Shown piece after piece: positions 8,583 to 45,188 of a DNA stretch of 64,000 nt (position 1 is the stretch's first letter; each line of letters starts with the position of its first letter). The notes beneath the pieces were generated by a model that did not search any database, had not been told where the DNA came from, and saw only the letters and a list, made by a program, of their open reading frames with translations. The position numbers and the translations under genes are program-made. The stretch lies in the NCBI RefSeq assembly GCF_014803405.1, contig NZ_JACYFG010000006.1:503501-567500 (forward strand), written 5' to 3'. The stretch comes from Pelagicoccus enzymogenes (lineage in GTDB: Bacteria; Verrucomicrobiota; Verrucomicrobiia; Opitutales; Opitutaceae).

Positions 8583-10391
8583 ATGCCGCAAATCCAAAGC
8601 CAGCATCCAGATCAGTTGAGCGATCCCATAAGTCCCGAGGCTTCCTCCTCCTCGGAAACGCTGTTCCTTCTCTCCATCTGCCGGGACGAAGACGATGCTG
8701 CCGCCCTCCGCGCCGACCTCAAGCGTTCCGGCTTGGGCGAATACAAGATCCAGCGCTGCGTCAATCTCGACGACGCCCTCCAGCTCATGCAGGTGTGCGG
8801 CTTCGACTTGGCGTTCATTCGTCTCGACGACTTCCAAAACCACCAAGCCGCCATCGAATTGGTGAGGCAGCACGACCCCGAGCTCGCCATCGTCGCGCTC
8901 ACCTCGCACCGACTCCTTAACTCTCGGGAGTTCCAGATGCCCTCCGGAGTCGACGGCAACTGCCGCCTCGAAGACCTTTCCCCCACCCTCGTTTCCAACC
9001 TAGTATCCAACATCCTAGGTCAAAAGCGAGACCGCATCGAACGACAACGCCTGAAGCAGGAACTGAGCTTCGCCCTCGAAGTCGGCGAAATGGGAACCTG
9101 GAGCCTAGACATCGAAACGGGCCGCATCACCCTCAGCAAACAAGCCTACCAAGCGATCGAAGTCGAAGCGTCTACCCCCCTTCCCTTTCTCGACGATCTA
9201 CTCGAAATCGCGTATCCACCCGATCAAGACAGGCTGAAACGCCTCTTCGACCTTTCCATCGAGAGCCAAGGTGATTTCGACGCAAAATTCCGCCTTTCCC
9301 GCAACGGCGAAGCAGGCCCCTCCCTTCACGTTTCAGCCATCTATCGGCCAGGAGGACCAAGAACCCACCCCACTCTCGCCGGCCTTATCAAGCGCGAACA
9401 GGCTTCATCCGAAGACATCCAGTCAAAAATCGAAGCTGCCAACGAAGCCATCCGCAAAGCCCTCGCCCTGCGAGACGAGGCCATCGCGACCGCCAGCAAG
9501 GAGCTCGAATCCCTCGCGCAAACCCTAAAGGCCCAAGAGCAAGGAGCGAAGCAAAGCGCAGTCCCGGCCCTGCCCGCCGAGCCGCTTCCAGCCGCAGCCC
9601 CTCCCCAAATTCCTCCCAAAACCAGCGAAACGACAAAGGGAGACTCCTCGCCTCCTCCCGAAAAAGAGGACGGACCTCCACAATCCGCGAAGGAAAAACC
9701 GCTCCCAGCCTCCCAAGATAAACCGCAATCTCCCCCTCGAAAGACAGGACTGCCACCGCTGGCAAGCGTCCCGTCACCTGAAACGTCAGCCCCGGGTGCG
9801 GAGCCAGTTACGGAGGACCAAACGCTCGGCATCGACAAGTCCCACGCCCTCCAGCAGGTGCTCAAGTCCATCAACAAACAAAAAGGCGAACCCATCGAGG
9901 ACGCCTTCCCTTTCGACTTTTCAACCGAGACCGTTTCCAACTACACCGAGCCCAGCCCGCAAAACGACGGCTTTATCGGGGCCGCAAAGCGGCTGATCGA
10001 CATCACCCAGAACGGGCACGACCTGGCCGTAACCCTCAGCGTCGACAACGACGGAGCCATCGAGAGCGAGCGCGAGCGCGACCTGCTCTTCGAGATTCTC
10101 AAGGAGCTGCTCACCAACGTCGTCAAGCACGCCCGCGCCACCGAATGCATCATCGCCCTCTTCCGCGACGAAGACGACTGGGTGCTGCAGGTCGAGGACG
10201 ACGGCGTCGGCTTGGAAAACAATCTCGTATCCATTTCCACCCCGCTCAACAAGATCGGCCTCTTCCGCATCCGCACCAAGCTCGCCCTCAAAGGCGGCCA
10301 GCTCGACCTCACACCGACCTTCCCCAAAGGGCTCATCGCCCGCGCCCGCCTGCCGGTCTACTTGATCAATAGAGGCGCCGAACGCGCCTAG
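8583..10391 (+). CDS. Degenerate sensor kinase: pseudo-receiver, PAS, Pro-rich linker, ATPase
   Basis: A 602-residue soluble protein. Residues 20-135 resemble a receiver, but the strand that normally carries the phospho-Asp reads 'FDLAFIRLDDF', with Arg where Asp is expected. Residues 160-270 look like a PAS domain ('EVGEMGTWSLDIETGRITLS'). A helical stretch (280-325) is followed by a roughly 100-residue Pro/Ala/Glu-rich linker. The C-terminal 110 residues are an HATPase_c domain of the NarL/LytS sort, with N-box 'LLTNVVKHA' and G1 'VEDDGVGLEN'. I see no HisKA or HisKA_3 H-box. It may be an ATP-binding scaffold, or the phospho-acceptor may lie in an unusual place. It is monocistronic and followed by a REP element. 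Confidence 0.7.
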   Translation: MPQIQSQHPDQLSDPISPEASSSSETLFLLSICRDEDDAAALRADLKRSGLGEYKIQRCVNLDDALQLMQVCGFDLAFIRLDDFQNHQAAIELVRQHDPELAIVALTSHRLLNSREFQMPSGVDGNCRLEDLSPTLVSNLVSNILGQKRDRIERQRLKQELSFALEVGEMGTWSLDIETGRITLSKQAYQAIEVEASTPLPFLDDLLEIAYPPDQDRLKRLFDLSIESQGDFDAKFRLSRNGEAGPSLHVSAIYRPGGPRTHPTLAGLIKREQASSEDIQSKIEAANEAIRKALALRDEAIATASKELESLAQTLKAQEQGAKQSAVPALPAEPLPAAAPPQIPPKTSETTKGDSSPPPEKEDGPPQSAKEKPLPASQDKPQSPPRKTGLPPLASVPSPETSAPGAEPVTEDQTLGIDKSHALQQVLKSINKQKGEPIEDAFPFDFSTETVSNYTEPSPQNDGFIGAAKRLIDITQNGHDLAVTLSVDNDGAIESERERDLLFEILKELLTNVVKHARATECIIALFRDEDDWVLQVEDDGVGLENNLVSISTPLNKIGLFRIRTKLALKGGQLDLTPTFPKGLIARARLPVYLINRGAERA

Positions 10392-36577: not shown

Positions 36578-37054
36578 TCACTCTTTCCATAACAGAACGT
36601 TCTCCTCGCCCTGCCATCTCCACCAATCCGGGCTCTCCACCAATCCCGCCCGCACCGGATTCATTTCCACGTAGGCCCACTTTTCTGAATACGAATCCCC
36701 GCTACGCAGCTGCGTATCCCAAAAATCCCGCTGCCAGGCGAAGCCCTCAAGCTTCCCCTCCCGCAGCGAACGACTCACCACCGACTTCCAGTAGCGTATC
36801 CATTTTCCAACAGGCGGAGCATCCACCACCCCCGGAGCGCAAAACAAATGAACATGGTCCGGCATCACCAGCCATCGACCCACCTGCCAATGATCAGCCT
36901 CCCTCCACGCTGAGCGAAGCGCTTCCACAAACAAGTCGTTGGCCATCACCGGAGCACGCCCCTTCGAGCAAACCGTCAGAAAAACGATCCGCGGCCGCTT
37001 GCCCTGATCGAAAAGCGGCATATGCGCCCGACGATTCCTATCAGGCAACAGCAT
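36578..37054 (-). CDS. REP-associated tyrosine transposase (RAYT)
   Basis: A 158-residue Y1 transposase. The HUH pair sits in 'LVMPDHVHLFCAP' (His67, His69) and the catalytic Tyr128 in 'WAYVEMNPVRAGLV', which is the RAYT signature. 'LWQRDFWD'-like spacing is kept ('FAWQRDFWDTQLRSGDSY'). RAYTs cut and paste REP sequences through single-stranded intermediates. All catalytic residues are present, so the protein is probably active. The ATG at 37054 is used; 37021 is an alternative, and the frame upstream of 37054 only reads through a REP. REP doublets flank it closely on both sides. Confidence 0.9.
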   Translation of the reverse strand: MLLPDRNRRAHMPLFDQGKRPRIVFLTVCSKGRAPVMANDLFVEALRSAWREADHWQVGRWLVMPDHVHLFCAPGVVDAPPVGKWIRYWKSVVSRSLREGKLEGFAWQRDFWDTQLRSGDSYSEKWAYVEMNPVRAGLVESPDWWRWQGEENVLLWKE

Positions 37055-37091
37055 GGACCGAAAATCCACCAAGCCACCCACAAACGCAACC

Positions 37092-37236
37092 CTGGAGGGA
37101 CGGGTTCCACCCGGTCCGCGCCAACCCAATCAAACACAACCCGATCAATCGCCCACCGATCCCCCTCCAACCCGATCCCAACATCACGGACGAGGTGGCA
37201 CTCGTCCCTCCAGCCCGTCGCCCCTCGTCCCTCCAA
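37092..37236 (+). repeat. REP doublet plus single arm at the 5' side of the RAYT gene
   Basis: Left arm CTGGAGGGACGGGTTCCACC then CGGTCCGCG; right arm GGACGAGGTGGCACTCGTCC then CTCCAG in inverse orientation, and an extra CCCCTCGTCCCTCCA at 37221. Left and right arms match the doublet at 36467 almost base for base. Confidence 0.85.
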
Positions 37237-37460
37237 TCCATCTTTCCCCCAAAACCACCCCTCACAAATCCCTACATCCGTGGTCTTCGGCTTGTAAAAA
37301 ACACCGGTAAAAACGGGGTAAACTCAACGTGACAAATCGGCGCCGGAGCTAAGTCACTGATTTAGAATTTCTTATTGATTTCCGGCCGACGACGCGGGGC
37401 AAAAGCCTCGTAAATCAAGTCCAAAAAAAAATTATTCACACGTTGACGACGCGGAAAAGC

Positions 37461-38908: not shown

Positions 38909-41900
38909 ATGATCAATCCAAATCTCCAAGAAGACCTCGCCCTCAAACGAATCGTAGCCGCCTCCCGCGAGAAGTCCCACGGCTTCGACTGGCGCTCCGG
39001 CTTGGGCGACACCGACACCCAACGCGCCGCCATCAACGTCGTCACCCACGAGGGCGAAGCCACCTTCAACCTTTCCGAAATCGTCGACACCATCGGCAAC
39101 GCCCTTGCCAACGTCCTCCTCTCCAAGAACGAGACCAACGTCTTCAACGAAGAAAACCGCGAGTGGGTCTGCTCCGTCGCCCGCCAAGTCTGCGACAAGC
39201 TCGAATCCAAGTCCCCTGAAACACTCGAGTCCCGCGTCGGTCTCAGCGAACTCTACGACCTCATCGAAAACACGCTCGTAGACAACAACGCCTACGACGT
39301 CGCCAAGTCGATGCTCATCAACCGTCAGCGCAAGCTCGTCGCCGACAAAACCGCAGGACTCAAACACGTGCGCCTCATCCGCCGCGACCGCAAGGTCGTC
39401 CCCTGGAAGCAAGAGAAGATCGAAATCGCCGTCCGCCGCGCCTTCCTCTCCCTCGAGCTCAACTCCGACCCCGCCGTCCAAGTCGCCGAGGCCGTCACCG
39501 AGCGCGTGCAAGCCTCCGCCCACGCCTTCGTCGAGATCGAAGAAGTCCAGGACATCGTCCAGGAAGAGCTCATGCGCCAAGGCCACTTCAAGGTAGCCGC
39601 CCACTACGTGCTCTACCGCGAAGAGCGCCGCCAGATGCGCGAGCAAGAAGCCCTCCAGCTCGCCAACGCCACCGAGCAAGACTCCATGGTCGTGGTCAAG
39701 AAGGCCGACGGCACCACCTACTTCTGGGACGGCATCGACCTCAAGAAGCGCATCGAGTTCGCCTCCATCGGCCTCGACCTCTGCCTCGACGCCGAACAAA
39801 TCGAGACCGAGCTCCGCCGCGCCATCTTCGACGAGATCTCCGAAGCCGACCTCGAGAAGACCATCACCCTCAACGCTCGCACCCTCATCGAGCAAGACGC
39901 CGACTTCGCCAAGTTCGCCGCCCGCATCAAGCTTTCCTACATGTACGAGGAGACCCTCGGCTGGGACATCGTCCGCGACGGCATCGCCGCCATCAAGAGC
40001 TTCCACCAAAAGAAGTTCAAGGAGTACGTCCGTCACGGCATCATGATCGGCCGCCTTAATCCCAAGCTCAAGGAGTACGACATCGCCAAGCTAGCCCGTA
40101 CCCTCGACCCCTCCGCCGACCTCGAGTTCGACTACCTCGGCATCCAGACCCTCTACGACCGCTACCTCATCGTCGACAAGACCCAGAAGAAGCAGCGTCG
40201 CATCGAGACGCCCCAGTTCTTCTGGATGCGCGTCGCCATGGGCCTATTCCACGCCGAAGAAGACTCCAACGAAAAGGCCAAGACCCTCTACCGTCTCTAC
40301 AAGTCCCGCCGCTTCTGCAGCTCCACTCCCACCCTCTTCAACTCCGGCACCTGCCACAGCCAGCTCTCCAGCTGCTACCTCTACTACGTTGAAGACTCCA
40401 TCGAAGGCATCATGCAGCGCGGCATCGCCGACAACGCCTACCTCTCCAAGTGGGCAGGCGGCCTCGGCGGATCCTGGACCGCAGTCCGCGGTACCGGCTC
40501 CTACATCGGCGGCACCAACGGCGAGTCCCAAGGCATCGTCCCCTTCCTCAAGCTGCACAACGACCAGCTCATCGCCGTCAACCAAGGCGGCAAGCGCCGC
40601 GGCTCCGGCTGCGCCTACCTGGAAACCTGGCACAACGACCTCTACGACTTCCTCGAGCTGCGCAAGAACACCGGCGACGACCGTCGTCGCTGCCACGACA
40701 TGAACACCGCCAACTGGATTCCAGACCTCTTCATGAAGCGCATGGAAGCCCGCCAGTCCTGGTCCTTCTTCCGCTCCTCCGAAGTCCCCGAGCTGCACGA
40801 CCTCTACGGCGAAGCCTTCGAAAAGAAGTACATCGAGTACGAAGCCAAGGCCGCCAAGGGCGAGATCTGGTCCAAGGAAGTTCCCGCCATCGAAGTTTGG
40901 AAAAACATGCTCCGGATGATCTTCGAAACCGGCCACCCATGGATCACCTTCAAGGACCCCTGCAACGTGCGCTCCCCCCAGGACCACGTCGGCGTCGTGC
41001 ACAGCTCCAACCTCTGCACCGAGATCACCCTCAACACTTCCCAGGAAGAAACCGCCGTCTGTAACCTCGGTTCCGTCGTGCTCGACCAGCACCTCGACAA
41101 GGACGGCAAGATCGACCACAAGAAGCTCCGCGAGACCGTCCAGACCGCCATCCGCGCCCTCGACAACGTCATCGACATCAACTTCTACCCAACCGAAGCG
41201 GCCCGCCTCTCCAACTCCCGCCACCGCCCCATCGGCCTCGGCATCATGGGACTGCAGAACTGCCTCTACCAGCGCAACACGCCCTTCGCCTCCCAAGAAG
41301 CCGTCGAGTTCAACGACGAGATCATGGAAGCCGTGGCCTACTACGCCATCGAAGCCTCCTCCGATCTCGCCGCCGAACGCGGCACCTACCAGAGCTACAA
41401 AGGCTCCAAGTGGGATCGCGGCCTCCTCCCGCAGGACACCATTGACCTGCTCGAGAAAGAACGCGGCACCGAAGTCGACGTCCCCCGCGGCGGCAAGATG
41501 GACTGGACTCCCGTCCGCGAGAAGATCGCCAAGCACGGCATGCGCAACTCCAACGTCATGGCCATCGCTCCCACCGCGACCATCTCGAACATCACCGGCA
41601 CCTCCCCCTGTATCGAGCCCGGCTACAAGAACCTCTTCGTCAAGAGCAACCTCTCCGGCGAGTTCATCATCCTCAACCAGCACCTCGTCCGCGACCTCAA
41701 GGAACGCGGCCTCTGGGACGCTGAGATGCGCGACAACCTCAAGTACTTCGACGGCGAGCTCGACGAGATCGAAAACATCCCCGACGACCTCAAGGCCAAG
41801 TACAAGACCGCCTTCTCCATCGACTACAGCTGGCTCGTACTGGCAGCCGCCCGCCGCCAAAAGTGGATCGACCAATCGCAGAGCGTGAACCTCTTCATCG

Positions 41901-42097
41901 CCAGCCCGGACATGAAGACCCTGTCTCACATGTACCGTGCCGCTTGGCGCCACGGCCTCAAGACTACCTACTACCTCCGCAGCCTCGGCGCCTCCACCAT
42001 CGAGAAAGCCACGGTAGGAGCGAAGAAGGAAGTCCGCGGCATCGTCGGCGGCAAAGCCACCGCGGCTGAGCCTGAAATCTGCGAATCGTGTCAATGA
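38909..42097 (+). CDS. nrdA: Ribonucleotide reductase alpha subunit with multiple ATP cones
   Basis: A 1062-residue class I catalytic subunit. The frame is open far upstream inside nrdB, but coding similarity starts at the ATG at 38909. Residues about 45-345 hold three consecutive ATP-cone-like domains, the first degenerate; multiple cones are typical of the chlamydial class Ic partner. Active-site residues are present: 'NSGTCHSQLSSC', 'SSNLCTEI', 'AVCNLGSV', and the radical-path Tyr pair in 'KTTYYLRS'. The C-terminal redox pair is 'ICESCQ' at the very end. It reduces NDPs to dNDPs with NrdB. A 34-codon ORF overlaps its stop (ATGA) and repeats ICESCQ. Confidence 0.93.
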   Translation: MINPNLQEDLALKRIVAASREKSHGFDWRSGLGDTDTQRAAINVVTHEGEATFNLSEIVDTIGNALANVLLSKNETNVFNEENREWVCSVARQVCDKLESKSPETLESRVGLSELYDLIENTLVDNNAYDVAKSMLINRQRKLVADKTAGLKHVRLIRRDRKVVPWKQEKIEIAVRRAFLSLELNSDPAVQVAEAVTERVQASAHAFVEIEEVQDIVQEELMRQGHFKVAAHYVLYREERRQMREQEALQLANATEQDSMVVVKKADGTTYFWDGIDLKKRIEFASIGLDLCLDAEQIETELRRAIFDEISEADLEKTITLNARTLIEQDADFAKFAARIKLSYMYEETLGWDIVRDGIAAIKSFHQKKFKEYVRHGIMIGRLNPKLKEYDIAKLARTLDPSADLEFDYLGIQTLYDRYLIVDKTQKKQRRIETPQFFWMRVAMGLFHAEEDSNEKAKTLYRLYKSRRFCSSTPTLFNSGTCHSQLSSCYLYYVEDSIEGIMQRGIADNAYLSKWAGGLGGSWTAVRGTGSYIGGTNGESQGIVPFLKLHNDQLIAVNQGGKRRGSGCAYLETWHNDLYDFLELRKNTGDDRRRCHDMNTANWIPDLFMKRMEARQSWSFFRSSEVPELHDLYGEAFEKKYIEYEAKAAKGEIWSKEVPAIEVWKNMLRMIFETGHPWITFKDPCNVRSPQDHVGVVHSSNLCTEITLNTSQEETAVCNLGSVVLDQHLDKDGKIDHKKLRETVQTAIRALDNVIDINFYPTEAARLSNSRHRPIGLGIMGLQNCLYQRNTPFASQEAVEFNDEIMEAVAYYAIEASSDLAAERGTYQSYKGSKWDRGLLPQDTIDLLEKERGTEVDVPRGGKMDWTPVREKIAKHGMRNSNVMAIAPTATISNITGTSPCIEPGYKNLFVKSNLSGEFIILNQHLVRDLKERGLWDAEMRDNLKYFDGELDEIENIPDDLKAKYKTAFSIDYSWLVLAAARRQKWIDQSQSVNLFIASPDMKTLSHMYRAAWRHGLKTTYYLRSLGASTIEKATVGAKKEVRGIVGGKATAAEPEICESCQ

Positions 42098-42195
42098 TTC
42101 ACAGAGTTCAGGGAACCTGTACCGAGGAGCTCCGCGACGACACCCGACTTCGAGTGAACACGAGAACAAAGGCAATTTGCGAGAGCTGCCAGTAG
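42094..42195 (+). CDS. 33-residue ORF overlapping nrdA stop, ending in a second ICESCQ
   Basis: The ATG lies inside the nrdA stop region (ATGA), in the -1 frame relative to nrdA. The peptide is basic in its second half ('TRLRVNTRTK') and ends AICESCQ, the same six residues as NrdA, but written ATT TGC GAG AGC TGC CAG against ATC TGC GAA TCG TGT CAA. The Ser codons AGC and TCG cannot interconvert by one substitution, so the match is at protein level, not a fresh DNA duplication. A terminator follows at 42218. It could be a coupled small protein, the end of a -1 frameshifted NrdA, or a relic of an older gene end. Confidence 0.55.
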   Translation: MIHRVQGTCTEELRDDTRLRVNTRTKAICESCQ

Positions 42196-42217
42196 GCGGG
42201 CCTAAATCAACTCTTCC

Positions 42218-42253
42218 AAAGCCTCGCACCCTAATCCAGTGCGGGGCTTTTTT
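42218..42253 (+). terminator. Rho-independent terminator after nrdA
   Basis: Stem AAAGCC.CGCAC / GTGCG.GGCTTT with a mismatch and a 9-base loop, followed by six T in all. It lies after the small overlapping ORF, not directly after nrdA, so the ORF is inside the transcript. Confidence 0.85.
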
Positions 42254-42287
42254 CCAAACTCCTGTATCGAGCAAACAACTCACAACC

Positions 42288-42809
42288 ATGCCCGAAACCC
42301 AGTACGTTATAGTGCCCTTAGATCCCAGAAGGCACGACCGAGAATCATTCATTTGCGAAGAGCTCGAACTCAACGAATACCTCAAAAAGCGGGCCCGCAA
42401 AGAAGCAGAGGCAAAAACCTCAACTTGCTTTGTCATCACAACCGAATCCGCTCCATCTAGCATTCTTGGTTACTACACCCTCTCAAACGCCAGTATCGCC
42501 TCAACGGACCTTCCCCAGAAATTCCTAAAACGCCTGCCAAGATACGAACGAATTCCCGTCACCTTACTGGGGCGAATCGCTAGAGACGTGGGCACCAAAG
42601 GAACTGACGTCGGTAAAATGCTGATGATGAGTGCCCTTGAGCAGTCCCTAAAAGCCTCTAAGTCAGCAGGATCTGCCGCACTCGTTCTCGATCCCAAAAA
42701 CGACAAAGTAGCGAGTATCTACAAAAGCTGGGGCTTCGAACGACTTGAAAACAAACAGATGTTCCTACCAATGAAAGACATCGAAAAATTCATCGAAGTC
42801 GCGACCTAA
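42288..42809 (+). CDS. GNAT acetyltransferase, TacT-like toxin
   Basis: A 173-residue GNAT protein. Its start 'MPETQYVIVPLDPRRHDRES' precedes 'FICEELELNEYLKKRARKEA', which resembles the 'fdCG...LN.yL..A.q' opening of TacT-type toxins. The acetyl-CoA region is 'LLGRIARDVGTKGTDVGKML', and the last strand has 'YKSWGFERLENKQMFLPM'. TacT enzymes acetylate charged tRNAs and stop translation. Its partner would be the DUF1778 protein on the other strand: the two stops overlap by four bases in a tail-to-tail arrangement, unlike the usual co-directional antitoxin-toxin order. Confidence 0.8.
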   Translation: MPETQYVIVPLDPRRHDRESFICEELELNEYLKKRARKEAEAKTSTCFVITTESAPSSILGYYTLSNASIASTDLPQKFLKRLPRYERIPVTLLGRIARDVGTKGTDVGKMLMMSALEQSLKASKSAGSAALVLDPKNDKVASIYKSWGFERLENKQMFLPMKDIEKFIEVAT

Positions 42810-43102
42810 GCTTCTTTCACGTTTTCTTTGTAAGCCTTCCAAGCAGCAACAAACTCGGGCGTAGGCTCCCTCGGCGGAGCCAACAATGCCTCTGCAAACC
42901 TCAAAGAATCCTCGGCGTTAAGCTGGATAACACGCTCTTGCTCAATCACCTCCAACGCCGCCTCTCGGAGGCGCATCTTAACGAAAGCCGAAACCGAAAT
43001 ACCCGACAGCGCCGCAGCCTTCTCAATCAACTGCTTATCCTCCGGACGAATCCGAGTCGCCAACCTTTCAGTTTCAGCTTTCACGACTGATTTGTACGTC
43101 AT
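42806..43102 (-). CDS. DUF1778 ribbon-helix-helix antitoxin, TacA-like
   Basis: A 98-residue protein. Residues 10-50 form the RHH region: 'ERLATRIRPEDKQLIEKAAA' then 'LSGISVSAFVKMRLREAALE', the standard DUF1778/TacA pattern. The C-terminus ('LLAPPREPTPEFVAAWKAYK') matches the tail that wraps and blocks the TacT toxin. It is convergent with the GNAT gene with overlapping stops. Normally one promoter repressed by TacA drives both genes; here each must have its own. Confidence 0.82.
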   Translation of the reverse strand: MTYKSVVKAETERLATRIRPEDKQLIEKAAALSGISVSAFVKMRLREAALEVIEQERVIQLNAEDSLRFAEALLAPPREPTPEFVAAWKAYKENVKEA

Positions 43103-43142
43103 TTAGACACACAAACTCAAGCCTAAATTCCGACCTCGAGAA

Positions 43143-44048
43143 ATGAATCCGCCTCTCCCTCCCGAAAAACTCATCCACTATACCAACGCCAAAGTAGCTG
43201 CTTCGATTCTGCTGAACAAAGAGCTATGGCTTTCAAATGCCCGCGACATGAACGACATCTCAGAAATCGAGCATGGATGGAGAATCCTCGAGACTAACAG
43301 TGGTATCGCGAGAGCGATCGACAAATTCGGTCTACGCGAGAATCTCGAAAGCTGGGAGAATGATTTCATGCAAAACACCTTTTTCTCCTGTTTCTCCCAA
43401 TTCAAAGGCGACCATGAGGAGCGTGACGGACGCCTCTCAATGTGGAGGGGCTACGGAGGTGAGCATCCAGTAGGAATCATTTTCAATACACAAGTACTGC
43501 AAGGCTTACTGGGGCATTCGGTTCACAGCTTCCGGCTAGACAAGGTCTCCTACGATCAAAACGAACAACGAGATAAGGTGCTAGCAGCCGTCGATGTACA
43601 TGCCCCAACAACAGAGAAAGACCCGATCAAGATAATGGACGCGCTTCAGCCCATTTTCTACCAGCTCCCCTTCTTCACCAAACACCCCGGATTCGAAGAA
43701 GAACAAGAGTGGCGACTTCTATACAATACGTATCACGATACAGATAAGGTAGCCCCCTTCGAACCCACAATAACAAATGAGTGGATGCTCGATGATGAAG
43801 CTAATCCGATCCGGAGAGTCGCAAAGCTAAAACTAACCAAAATACGAGATCCGGAAGCGGCGAATCCTATCAACGATGGGGACTCCCGCGACCTAATACC
43901 TGAAATCATAATTGGCCCCATGCCCGAATATAATCAGTGTAAAATCGCAAAAACCCTTCAGAATATCGCCGACGACTCAGTTTTTAATAATATAATAATC
44001 AATCGCTCCCAGATACCTTATAGAAACAGATCCAATAGAGCACGATGA
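43143..44048 (+). CDS. DUF2971 family protein
   Basis: A 301-residue soluble protein with the DUF2971 pattern: 'LIHYTNAKVAASILLNKELW' near the start, 'SNARDMNDISEIEHGW', 'FFSCFSQFKGDHEERDGRLS' and 'MWRGYGGEHPVGIIFN'. DUF2971 genes are frequent in bacterial defence islands, but the biochemical role is not established. The gene starts 40 bp upstream of, and divergent from, the TacA-like gene. It is followed by the first copy of the 30-bp direct repeat. Confidence 0.8.
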   Translation: MNPPLPPEKLIHYTNAKVAASILLNKELWLSNARDMNDISEIEHGWRILETNSGIARAIDKFGLRENLESWENDFMQNTFFSCFSQFKGDHEERDGRLSMWRGYGGEHPVGIIFNTQVLQGLLGHSVHSFRLDKVSYDQNEQRDKVLAAVDVHAPTTEKDPIKIMDALQPIFYQLPFFTKHPGFEEEQEWRLLYNTYHDTDKVAPFEPTITNEWMLDDEANPIRRVAKLKLTKIRDPEAANPINDGDSRDLIPEIIIGPMPEYNQCKIAKTLQNIADDSVFNNIIINRSQIPYRNRSNRAR

Positions 44049-44074
44049 ACCTAAACACGAGGAAAGCAAAATGA

Positions 44075-44104
44075 GGTCAGCTCTTAAATCTTGATATACG
44101 CCCC
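44075..44104 (+). repeat. 30-bp direct repeat, copy 1
   Basis: GGTCAG, then CTCTTAAATCTTGAT, then ATACGCCCC. 26 of 30 positions equal the copy at 46978-47007. It contains the presumed TTG start of the RES gene. Confidence 0.75.
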
Positions 44105-44759
44105 GACCTACTCTCCTAAGCACCAACGCGAGCTGTTACCTCGCCCCACCAAAAAAACTAACTCTTGCCCCTTATGTCCACACCCCGAATTCGAGGCTTT
44201 CTGCCGCCGCCTCCAAGGCCGCCCCAAAGGATCTAGCGAACAGTTCCAAGGAACGCTCTTTAGATTCGTTCATCCTCGCTACTCCTCGGGAATGGACGCA
44301 ACGAGCGGAATGGGAGCACTCAAGGTCTCTGGTCGCTGGCATCCCCAAGGCAGGTTCCCCTGCCTCTACACCTCAACAACACCGGAAACCGCCCTGCAAG
44401 AGATGTTGGCAGCCAATCGCTACAACCGCCTTCAGGACCATCGCTCGCTTCCGTCGACCCTTGTCGACATACGAGCCGAACTCTTTCACCTCCTGGACCT
44501 CACCAACGGAAAGCTTCGCCAACGCCTGAGATTATCCAACATCGCGATCCAAAACTGCGACTGGCGCAATACGAACCGCTTTGACAGGGCGGAAGCCATC
44601 ACCCAAGCCTTAGGCAGGGCCGCATTCGATCTCGGATACGAAGGCATCATTGCTCCATCAACTACGAGTAATCCAAACGGGCGAAACGTAGTGATCTTTC
44701 CAGGCAAGCTCCTGCGTTCCGAAAGTATCAAATTGCTCACTCCCATTCCCAACACCTAA
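44091..44759 (+). CDS. RES-domain toxin
   Basis: A 222-residue protein. The RES domain has 'GTLFRFVHPRYSS' and 'GALKVSGRWHPQG', the Arg- and Trp-containing signature, then 'CLYTSTTPETALQEML' and the terminal 'NPNGRNVVIFPGKLL'. RES toxins degrade NAD+ and are neutralised by an Xre-type antitoxin. The only in-frame start is a TTG at 44091 lying inside the direct repeat, so the true start or the effect of the repeat on expression is uncertain. The antitoxin follows, which is the reverse of the usual Xre-then-RES order. Confidence 0.82.
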   Translation: MIYAPTYSPKHQRELLPRPTKKTNSCPLCPHPEFEAFCRRLQGRPKGSSEQFQGTLFRFVHPRYSSGMDATSGMGALKVSGRWHPQGRFPCLYTSTTPETALQEMLAANRYNRLQDHRSLPSTLVDIRAELFHLLDLTNGKLRQRLRLSNIAIQNCDWRNTNRFDRAEAITQALGRAAFDLGYEGIIAPSTTSNPNGRNVVIFPGKLLRSESIKLLTPIPNT

Positions 44760-44779
44760 AAGTGGAATTTTCCACTTTT
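44758..44779. promoter_or_regulatory. 22-bp inverted repeat between RES and Xre genes
   Basis: AAAAGTGGAA-TT-TTCCACTTTT, ten perfect base pairs with a two-base centre, overlapping the RES stop codon. It is AT-rich and not a good terminator; more likely an operator for the Xre protein or an internal promoter element. Confidence 0.55.
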
Positions 44780-44834
44780 CTTTCAAACAAGCTGATGCTA
44801 GGGTCGTTGATCAAAGAAGAAGGACCGAAACAAG

Positions 44835-45188
44835 ATGATCAGCGAACTCGACACTAAGCCCCTCAACGCGGCGACACTTAAGGAGCTGAGAAAGACCGTC
44901 CAGCTCAACCAGCAAAAGTTCGCCAAGCTGAGCAACAACTCCCGTGAGACGCTCATCACCTTCGAAAAGACCGGTCGCGTATCGAAAGGTGCGAAGCGCG
45001 GGATAACAGAGGCGGTCAGACTCATCGAGGCCCTCAGCGAGATCATCGAACCCAAGAACATCGCAAGTTGGCTAACCACGACCAATCCCAATCTCCGAAA
45101 CAAGTCCCCTTTAGACCTGATCGAAGAAGGCCGCGTCGACATCATCTGGTCCATAATCGAAGAAACCCGCCAAGGCACCTTCGCCTAA
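44835..45188 (+). CDS. Xre/MbcA-type antitoxin of the RES pair
   Basis: A 117-residue protein with an N-terminal helix-turn-helix ('LKELRKTVQLNQQKFAKLSN' then 'NSRETLITFEKTGRVSKGAK') and a C-terminal toxin-binding (DUF2384-like) part, 'SPLDLIEEGRVDIIWSIIEE'. The latter ends in a short 'TRQGTFA' tail that would insert into the RES active site. A ribosome site GAAGAAGGA precedes the ATG. It is probably able to repress its own expression at the palindrome upstream. Confidence 0.82.
   Translation: MISELDTKPLNAATLKELRKTVQLNQQKFAKLSNNSRETLITFEKTGRVSKGAKRGITEAVRLIEALSEIIEPKNIASWLTTTNPNLRNKSPLDLIEEGRVDIIWSIIEETRQGTFA

Follow-up and report, generated by a model that had tools for sequence, protein, structure and literature searches.

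Why is the end of a ribonucleotide reductase gene followed, a short distance downstream, by a second stretch encoding its own last six residues, and which of the two copies is the native end? The question was raised by the nrdA gene of Pelagicoccus enzymogenes, located in a 64,000-nt stretch of DNA, the whole of which is called here the window. This gene, the single nrdA match in a search of its own genome, encodes a class I large subunit, in which the ATP-cone, all-alpha and barrel domains (Pfam PF02867, PF00317 and PF03477, all above cut-off) are combined with the C-terminal C-x-x-C (tail CESC). A preliminary description of the locus had pointed out that NrdA ends in ICESCQ and that a 33-codon ORF, starting in the −1 frame at an ATGA overlap with the nrdA stop codon, ends with the same six residues, and the sequence read-out agreed (Table 1). 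The second ICESCQ is encoded at 42175–42192, with a stop-to-stop distance of 98 nt, and a GTG two codons upstream of the ATG at 42094 gives a 35-codon version of the ORF. Five of the six codons differ between the copies, TCG versus AGC included, and all these differences are synonymous, changing 7 of 18 nt. The terminator noted after the second copy (42221–42253) was also recognised by eye as a 9-bp stem (42221–42229/42239–42247) with a loop of 9 nt and six T; the terminator scan, which was restricted to loops of 3–8 nt, listed none. A chance origin of the duplicate is excluded: after shuffling the 200 nt past the nrdA stop, ICESCQ with a stop was obtained in none of 200,000 shuffles and five or more of the six residues in one.

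Table 1. Features at the 3′-end of nrdA in the window (positions of the whole 64,000-nt stretch)
Feature	Position	Strand	Remarks
nrdA, class I ribonucleotide reductase large subunit, 1062 aa	38909..42097	+	Tail ...AEPEICESCQ, stop TGA; closing codons GAA ATC TGC GAA TCG TGT CAA TGA
Active tail, probably incoming	42077..42097	+	ATC TGC GAA TCG TGT CAA TGA
33-codon ORF, ATGA overlap with nrdA	42094..42195	+	Stop TAG 42193–42195
Left spacer of the putative inserted unit	42098..42119	+	60 nt from 42098 unlike unit-free nrdA flanks
Dispersed-repeat core, consensus TACCGAGGAGCGNAGCGACGACACTCGAGGAGCNNAGCGACGANACA	42120..42160	+	Model R1, 30.7 bits
Echo, most likely the displaced native nrdA end	42175..42195	+	ATT TGC GAG AGC TGC CAG TAG; following flank of unit-free type
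Native nrdA 3′ flank (probable) and intrinsic terminator	42196..42253	+	Stem 42221–42247, T run 42248–42253

The native end of nrdA in the genus

The reading we prefer, to which we assign a probability of about three in four, is that nrdA originally ended at the second ICESCQ, and that this end was left behind when a short repeat unit inserted, bringing with it a working tail as a replacement. The nrdA gene was found in all eight genomes of the genus that were searched. Three of them carry the unit at nrdA (the window genome G000, G063 and G121), while reading of the sequence after the stop codon in the other five (G019, G110, G120, G122 and G089) revealed nrdA without it, and the model of the repeat core described below gave no match at these five loci. 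The closest relative, G089 (96% identity across the last 198 residues of NrdA, compared with 94% for G122), is one of the unit-free genomes; its tail resembles the active tail of the window, and by eye a flank of the unit-free type begins within a few bases.

To assign the ends, the 60 nt after each stop codon were aligned to the nrdA flanks of G110, G122, G120 and G019. The sequence after the second stop of the window gave z values of 3.2, 10.1, 5.3 and 11.2, respectively, and that after the first stop −1.7, −1.2, 2.7 and 0.0. The flank of the second copy thus matches the unit-free relatives and that of the first does not, which points to the second as the probable native end. In G063, where three nrdA ends are stacked, the third gave z values of 9.8, 13.2, 9.4 and −0.1 in the same order and the first two did not exceed 1.5. 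On these alignments, nrdA of both genomes most likely ended at the last tail before any insertion. A new end upstream and the native end downstream is the arrangement expected of an integrase-mediated element at a gene 3′-end; it was recognised in the window and G063, and weakly in G048 (best z of the last flank to unit-free sites 3.2) and EAC85 (2.5). The silent second tail of G063, TCGTGTCAATGATTCAC, is of the type that is active in the window, and by eye G048 and G008 have the first and second unit types in common: the units stack, apparently with the newest adjoining the gene. The gene adjoining nrdA varies among the relatives (by eye). GC3 is lower in the final 90 nt of nrdA both with and without the unit, and was therefore excluded from the argument.

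A dispersed repeat family and its placement behind tRNA genes

A motif from the central part of the insert is present eight times in the window genome with up to three mismatches (reversed control, none) and was detected in 12 of 120 genomes of the family, the reversed control appearing in 3 of 120, once each. A core model built from 22 copies, with 150 candidates scored per genome, produced 133 matches (E up to 0.01) distributed over all eight genomes of the genus. The unit core is about 47 bp long and has two tiny hairpins of 2 bp each, which find some support in the alignment: 94.2% of the cells were paired and 11 cells had a two-sided change, neither value being reached in 500 shuffles of an alignment from which the structure had itself been drawn, and with a sliding hairpin partner two-sided changes were confined to two cells at most. 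On the other side, 184 of 500 shuffles had at least as many pairs with two-sided change (3), and the number of further pair types (7) was not above the shuffles. When folded as DNA, the window unit did no better than its shuffles (z −0.32), and two tRNA units gave z values of −1.83 and −1.39. No Rfam family matched the region 41500–43000 of the window up to an E value of 1. The core family shares with REP elements the character of a short, dispersed, hairpin-capable repeat. No description of it was found in the titles and abstract openings searched.

For the genomic placement, 94 distinct core copies were examined as loci, mainly from the genus and some from neighbouring genera. Twenty-nine of them are located on the 3′ side of a Ser (with three anticodons), Thr, Asn, Phe or Gln tRNA gene, at a distance of at most 700 nt. 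If a genome of about 6 Mb has a few dozen tRNA genes, the expected share would presumably be well under one in ten copies. These tRNA-adjacent cores are mostly opposite to the tRNA (21 opposite, 8 in the same orientation), and the core at nrdA, being oriented as the gene, has the minority orientation. Direct repeats of at least 15 bp spanning the core were detected in 23 of the 29 tRNA-adjacent copies versus 7 of the 65 others, and in none of the shuffled flanks (20 per copy). In the window genome, a 104-bp unit is present twice behind a tRNA-Thr gene and a 241-bp unit behind a tRNA-Ser gene; the repeated gene ends, or echoes, of the Thr and Phe tRNAs start past the T-loop, as judged by reading.

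An ORF of at least 80 codons ends no more than 250 nt before the core in 78 of the 94 copies. Among these 78, echoes of a protein gene were accepted only at the two nrdA loci present, those of the window and G063; the remaining matches belonged to tRNA arrays (L077, which includes a 467-codon ORF, L250 and L251) or lay beside a 98-codon ORF (L209).

Several further copies deserve mention. One core copy of G110 (L172, G110:C6:1945811–1945850) lies between two integrase matches, which are pieces of an integrase pseudogene. A short copy at G000:C23:302–324 (L052), flanked by a 27-bp direct repeat, seems to interrupt a tRNA-like D-arm. The cores at L196, L209, L229, L254 and L190 have no tRNA gene within 700 nt in the sequence available, yet direct repeats of 15–60 bp span them. 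In G090, which belongs to a different genus, four copies of a related dispersed motif were seen, for example ACCGAGGAGCGATGCGACGACACCTCA (L160, L171, L175 and L179).

The identity of the insert also bears on the possibility that an assembly or frameshift error has split a long gene with a single end. The preliminary description had considered that the old gene end was displaced by a frameshift; a displaced end is indeed indicated by the flanks of the relatives, while the frameshift is contradicted by the insertion of a dispersed repeat. No point in favour of an error was found: nrdA of the relatives stops after the first tail, the inserted DNA is a repeat with further copies in the same genome, and similar structures are present in independent assemblies, which makes the chance of such an error practically negligible.

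Tail echoes at other nrdA loci

Besides the genus, nrdA ends were compared more widely. From 142 distinct 3′-ends (16 loci had been dropped because the nrdA end was not recognised), 136 had at least 200 nt of downstream sequence, and an echo was defined as at least six of seven tail residues followed by a stop codon on the same strand within 350 nt. Eight of the 136 ends have one: the window, G063, G048, EAC85, G085, G036, G071 and Rubritalea marina. Antisense echoes, or echoes more than 350 nt away, were not found in the few hundred nt to several kb available downstream of each locus.

If the second ICESCQ were maintained as a peptide, its start and reading frame should recur in relatives. 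The stop-to-stop distance of the main echo and its frame relative to nrdA vary, being 98 nt (−1) in the window, 93 nt (0) in G063, 75 nt (0) in G121, 182 nt (−1) in G048, 142 nt (+1) in EAC85, 98 nt (−1) in G085 and 73 nt (+1) in Rubritalea, and a truncated echo stands at 82 nt (+1) in G008. The echo of G121 has decayed to ICEKC-stop, which keeps the C-x-x-C and has lost S and Q, and the truncated echoes of G063 (the third), G048 (the second) and G008 have no C-x-x-C. Only G085, from a different genus, has the layout of the window, with CAATGA and a 33-codon ATGA ORF ending in GECEACQ; its intervening sequence looks unrelated to that of the window, and since there are just two such cases we read the common layout as a coincidence.

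These data weigh against two readings of the overlapping ORF put forward in the preliminary description. A translationally coupled small protein, offering NrdA a second C-x-x-C tail in trans, would suit the ATGA overlap, the open 33-codon frame, the six residues kept despite the codon differences and the similar ORF of G085. It is nevertheless very improbable, as the unit is missing at nrdA in five of eight genomes of the genus, start and frame vary among the genomes with echoes, decayed and truncated echoes exist, six residues outside CESCQ differ from G048 in the stretch common to both, and no Shine–Dalgarno-like sequence was seen by eye ahead of the ATG at 42094. The 35-residue form had no Pfam match. 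A long NrdA with two redox tails, made by −1 frameshifting or by stop readthrough, is slightly more improbable still: the window is open into the −1 frame and G063 and G121 are open, with the echo in the nrdA frame past one stop, but the recoding needed would differ by genome (−1, 0 or +1), and a stop codon lies between the ends in the echo frame of G008, Rubritalea and the full echo of G048. Selection for the peptide, which had been taken as the simplest explanation, loses its ground with the missing units and the varying frame, spacing and start, and the absence of the ORF in close relatives, which the preliminary description had named as refuting its reading, was observed in G089, G122, G019, G110 and G120. 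On these comparisons, the 33-residue ORF is judged to be incidental to the insertion.

The length of the echoes ranges from about 9 to about 230 nt. The displaced ends are long in EAC85 (about 20 codons) and G071 (about 230 nt, by eye), and in G071 a terminator-like stem was seen by eye at each end. G036, from another genus, has a 146-bp tandem unit consisting of the nrdA end and a repeat, in 2.2 copies with 97% match, and a core-like motif directly ahead of each echo (E 0.003 and 0.005). The core model found no match at the echoes of EAC85, G085, Rubritalea, G071, G048 and G008; the likeness of G048 and G008 to the core was seen by eye alone. In EAC85 and G071 (L085 and L317), the displaced nrdA end is preceded, by eye, by a similar GTAGCNNNNNNGAAGGC motif, which may perhaps represent a second repeat family. 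A decayed lone copy of the last 55 NrdA residues, CDSCQ included, was noticed in G110, 1.08 Mb from nrdA (L033, about 9825–9989, minus strand).

The origin of the active tail was approached through the codon differences between paired tails, which in the window, G063, G048, G085 and Rubritalea taken together comprise 19 synonymous and 2 nonsynonymous differences; elsewhere they were 7 and 9 (EAC85, ungapped) and 1 and 2 (G121). Mostly synonymous differences are expected if both tails were working gene ends while they diverged and were brought together later. This comparison favours an incoming tail, probably already diverged from another nrdA allele on arrival, over a recent duplication. G036 and perhaps also G048 are exceptions, since their copies hardly differ. 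Slippage, that is, tandem duplication of the gene end with the repeat and later divergence of both copies, would account for the G036 tandem at 97% match, the G048 tails that differ at 1 of 18 nt, and the tRNA arrays. Slippage has a low probability as a general reading; in the window, the 7 differences in 18 nt, TCG versus AGC included, have left the silent copy free of nonsynonymous change.

Ordinary recombination has to be weighed more seriously, even if it too is unlikely. A foreign nrdA may have crossed over within the gene and been joined illegitimately downstream with the old end left in place, the repeat being a bystander or the joining point. The variable length of the echoes, illustrated by EAC85 (about 20 codons) and G071 (about 230 nt, with terminator-like stems by eye), agrees with this, as do the mostly synonymous differences in five genomes. 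Such gene replacement leaves unexplained why several tRNA genes have 3′-end echoes associated with this very repeat, and likewise the tandem unit of G036. The insertion of a repeat unit, in turn, has the variable echo length against it, which is unlike one strict recombinase site. Further points against it are the layout that G085 has in common with the window, the in-frame echoes of G063 and G121 (the latter with its C-x-x-C kept), the nonsynonymous differences in EAC85 and G121, the echoes at which the core model found no match, the weak flank matches of G048 and EAC85, the minority orientation of the nrdA core, and the failure to find a full-size element, a nearby integrase or a free carrier.

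Comparison with known elements, candidate enzymes and significance

Integrative elements use the 3′-ends of tRNA and protein genes as targets, restoring the gene end and displacing the old one. The preferred reading may be an integrative element in miniature: a short repeat unit carrying its own gene end would insert at a 3′-end target, the native tail would be shifted downstream, and the active new tail would leave the protein intact. Selection would preserve the active tail, as it keeps NrdA intact, and the displaced tail would be untranslated DNA between the stop codon and the original terminator, free to decay. Insertion at gene 3′-ends would be site-specific or homology-guided. The likeness consists in nrdA staying whole, the old 3′-end lying downstream and tRNA 3′-ends being common sites; unlike integrative elements, the units have only about 50–110 nt from the end to the next echo, no integrase or cargo, a variable echo and nrdA as a target. 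The titles and abstract openings searched yielded no instance of nrdA as attB. Passages of PMC3826726 deal with nrdB on an ICE, not with nrdA as a site.

Other short repeats share single features with the family. Downstream of the Escherichia coli tyrT gene, the rtT repeats form tandem units, each with a tRNA 3′-end. The units described here resemble them in holding a tRNA 3′-end in tandem behind a tRNA gene and differ in that one core is found behind several tRNAs and behind a protein gene, as well as at other genomic sites; nothing on rtT repeats was found in titles and abstract openings. REP/BIME elements, which RAYT (Y1) transposases mobilise, are likewise short, dispersed and hairpin-bearing, and Y1 domains occur in all eight genomes of the genus, but two 2-bp mini-hairpins take the place of the REP stem, and to our knowledge gene-end echoes are no trait of REPs. 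Rickettsia palindromic elements are small repeats whose insertion into or next to a gene does not destroy it. Small size and an undamaged gene are common to both; in nrdA there is no in-frame insertion within the gene, and the gene end is duplicated.

The search for an enzyme or carrier gave no candidate linked to the unit. With 77 nt between the two nrdA ends, the insert of the window is too short for a gene and thus contains no integrase gene. No integrase match was seen by eye within 100 kb of nrdA on the shared contigs of 10 genomes, several of these contigs being short (in G089 and G008 the contig breaks off a few kb from nrdA). Insertion by Cas1 in the manner of casposons, with target-site duplication, was rejected, since Cas1, present in five of eight genomes, is absent from two that are rich in copies, G120 (31 core matches) and G089 (15). 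Y1_Tnp domains are present in all eight genomes, with 1–8 matches each versus 3–31 core matches, and a RAYT-type transposase is kept as a candidate. The survey of integrases, Cas1 and Y1 transposases revealed no link to the unit, the unit had no match in plasmids or phages, and neither a full-size element nor a free carrier was found; 32 viral NrdA relatives were listed.

Two neighbouring regions of the window are recorded here as separate observations. A RAYT-like Y1 transposase ORF (36578–37129, minus strand; 21.5 bits for Y1_Tnp, which has a cut-off of 23) lies upstream of nrdB, with G/C-rich repeats nearby (about 36976–37332, by eye). Directly after nrdA, a toxin–antitoxin-like cluster (42288–45188) contains a TacA-type antitoxin (42806–43102, minus strand) and a facing ORF, GNAT by eye, without a Pfam match over cut-off, as well as a DUF2971 protein and a RES-domain protein, whose Xre/MbcA-like partner falls slightly short of its cut-off.

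We conclude that the second tail is real and best explained as a displaced gene end, and that a small protein or a frameshift is unlikely; what makes the locus interesting is the repeat family together with the recurrent displacement of nrdA ends. Mobility of DNA can generate a repeated peptide without any selection for a new protein, which is a trap for the discovery of small ORFs. The family marks the 3′-ends of genes, and nrdA is a recurrent site of gene-end displacement (8 of 136 ends, one of them in Rubritalea marina). A wider proposal is that in Verrucomicrobiota units of about 100 bp, each joining a core to a functional 3′-end of a tRNA gene or of nrdA, install themselves at the matching gene and displace their predecessor; we offer it tentatively and consider it more doubtful than probable. 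If units did travel with gene ends in this way, the final codons of an essential gene would have been swapped repeatedly.
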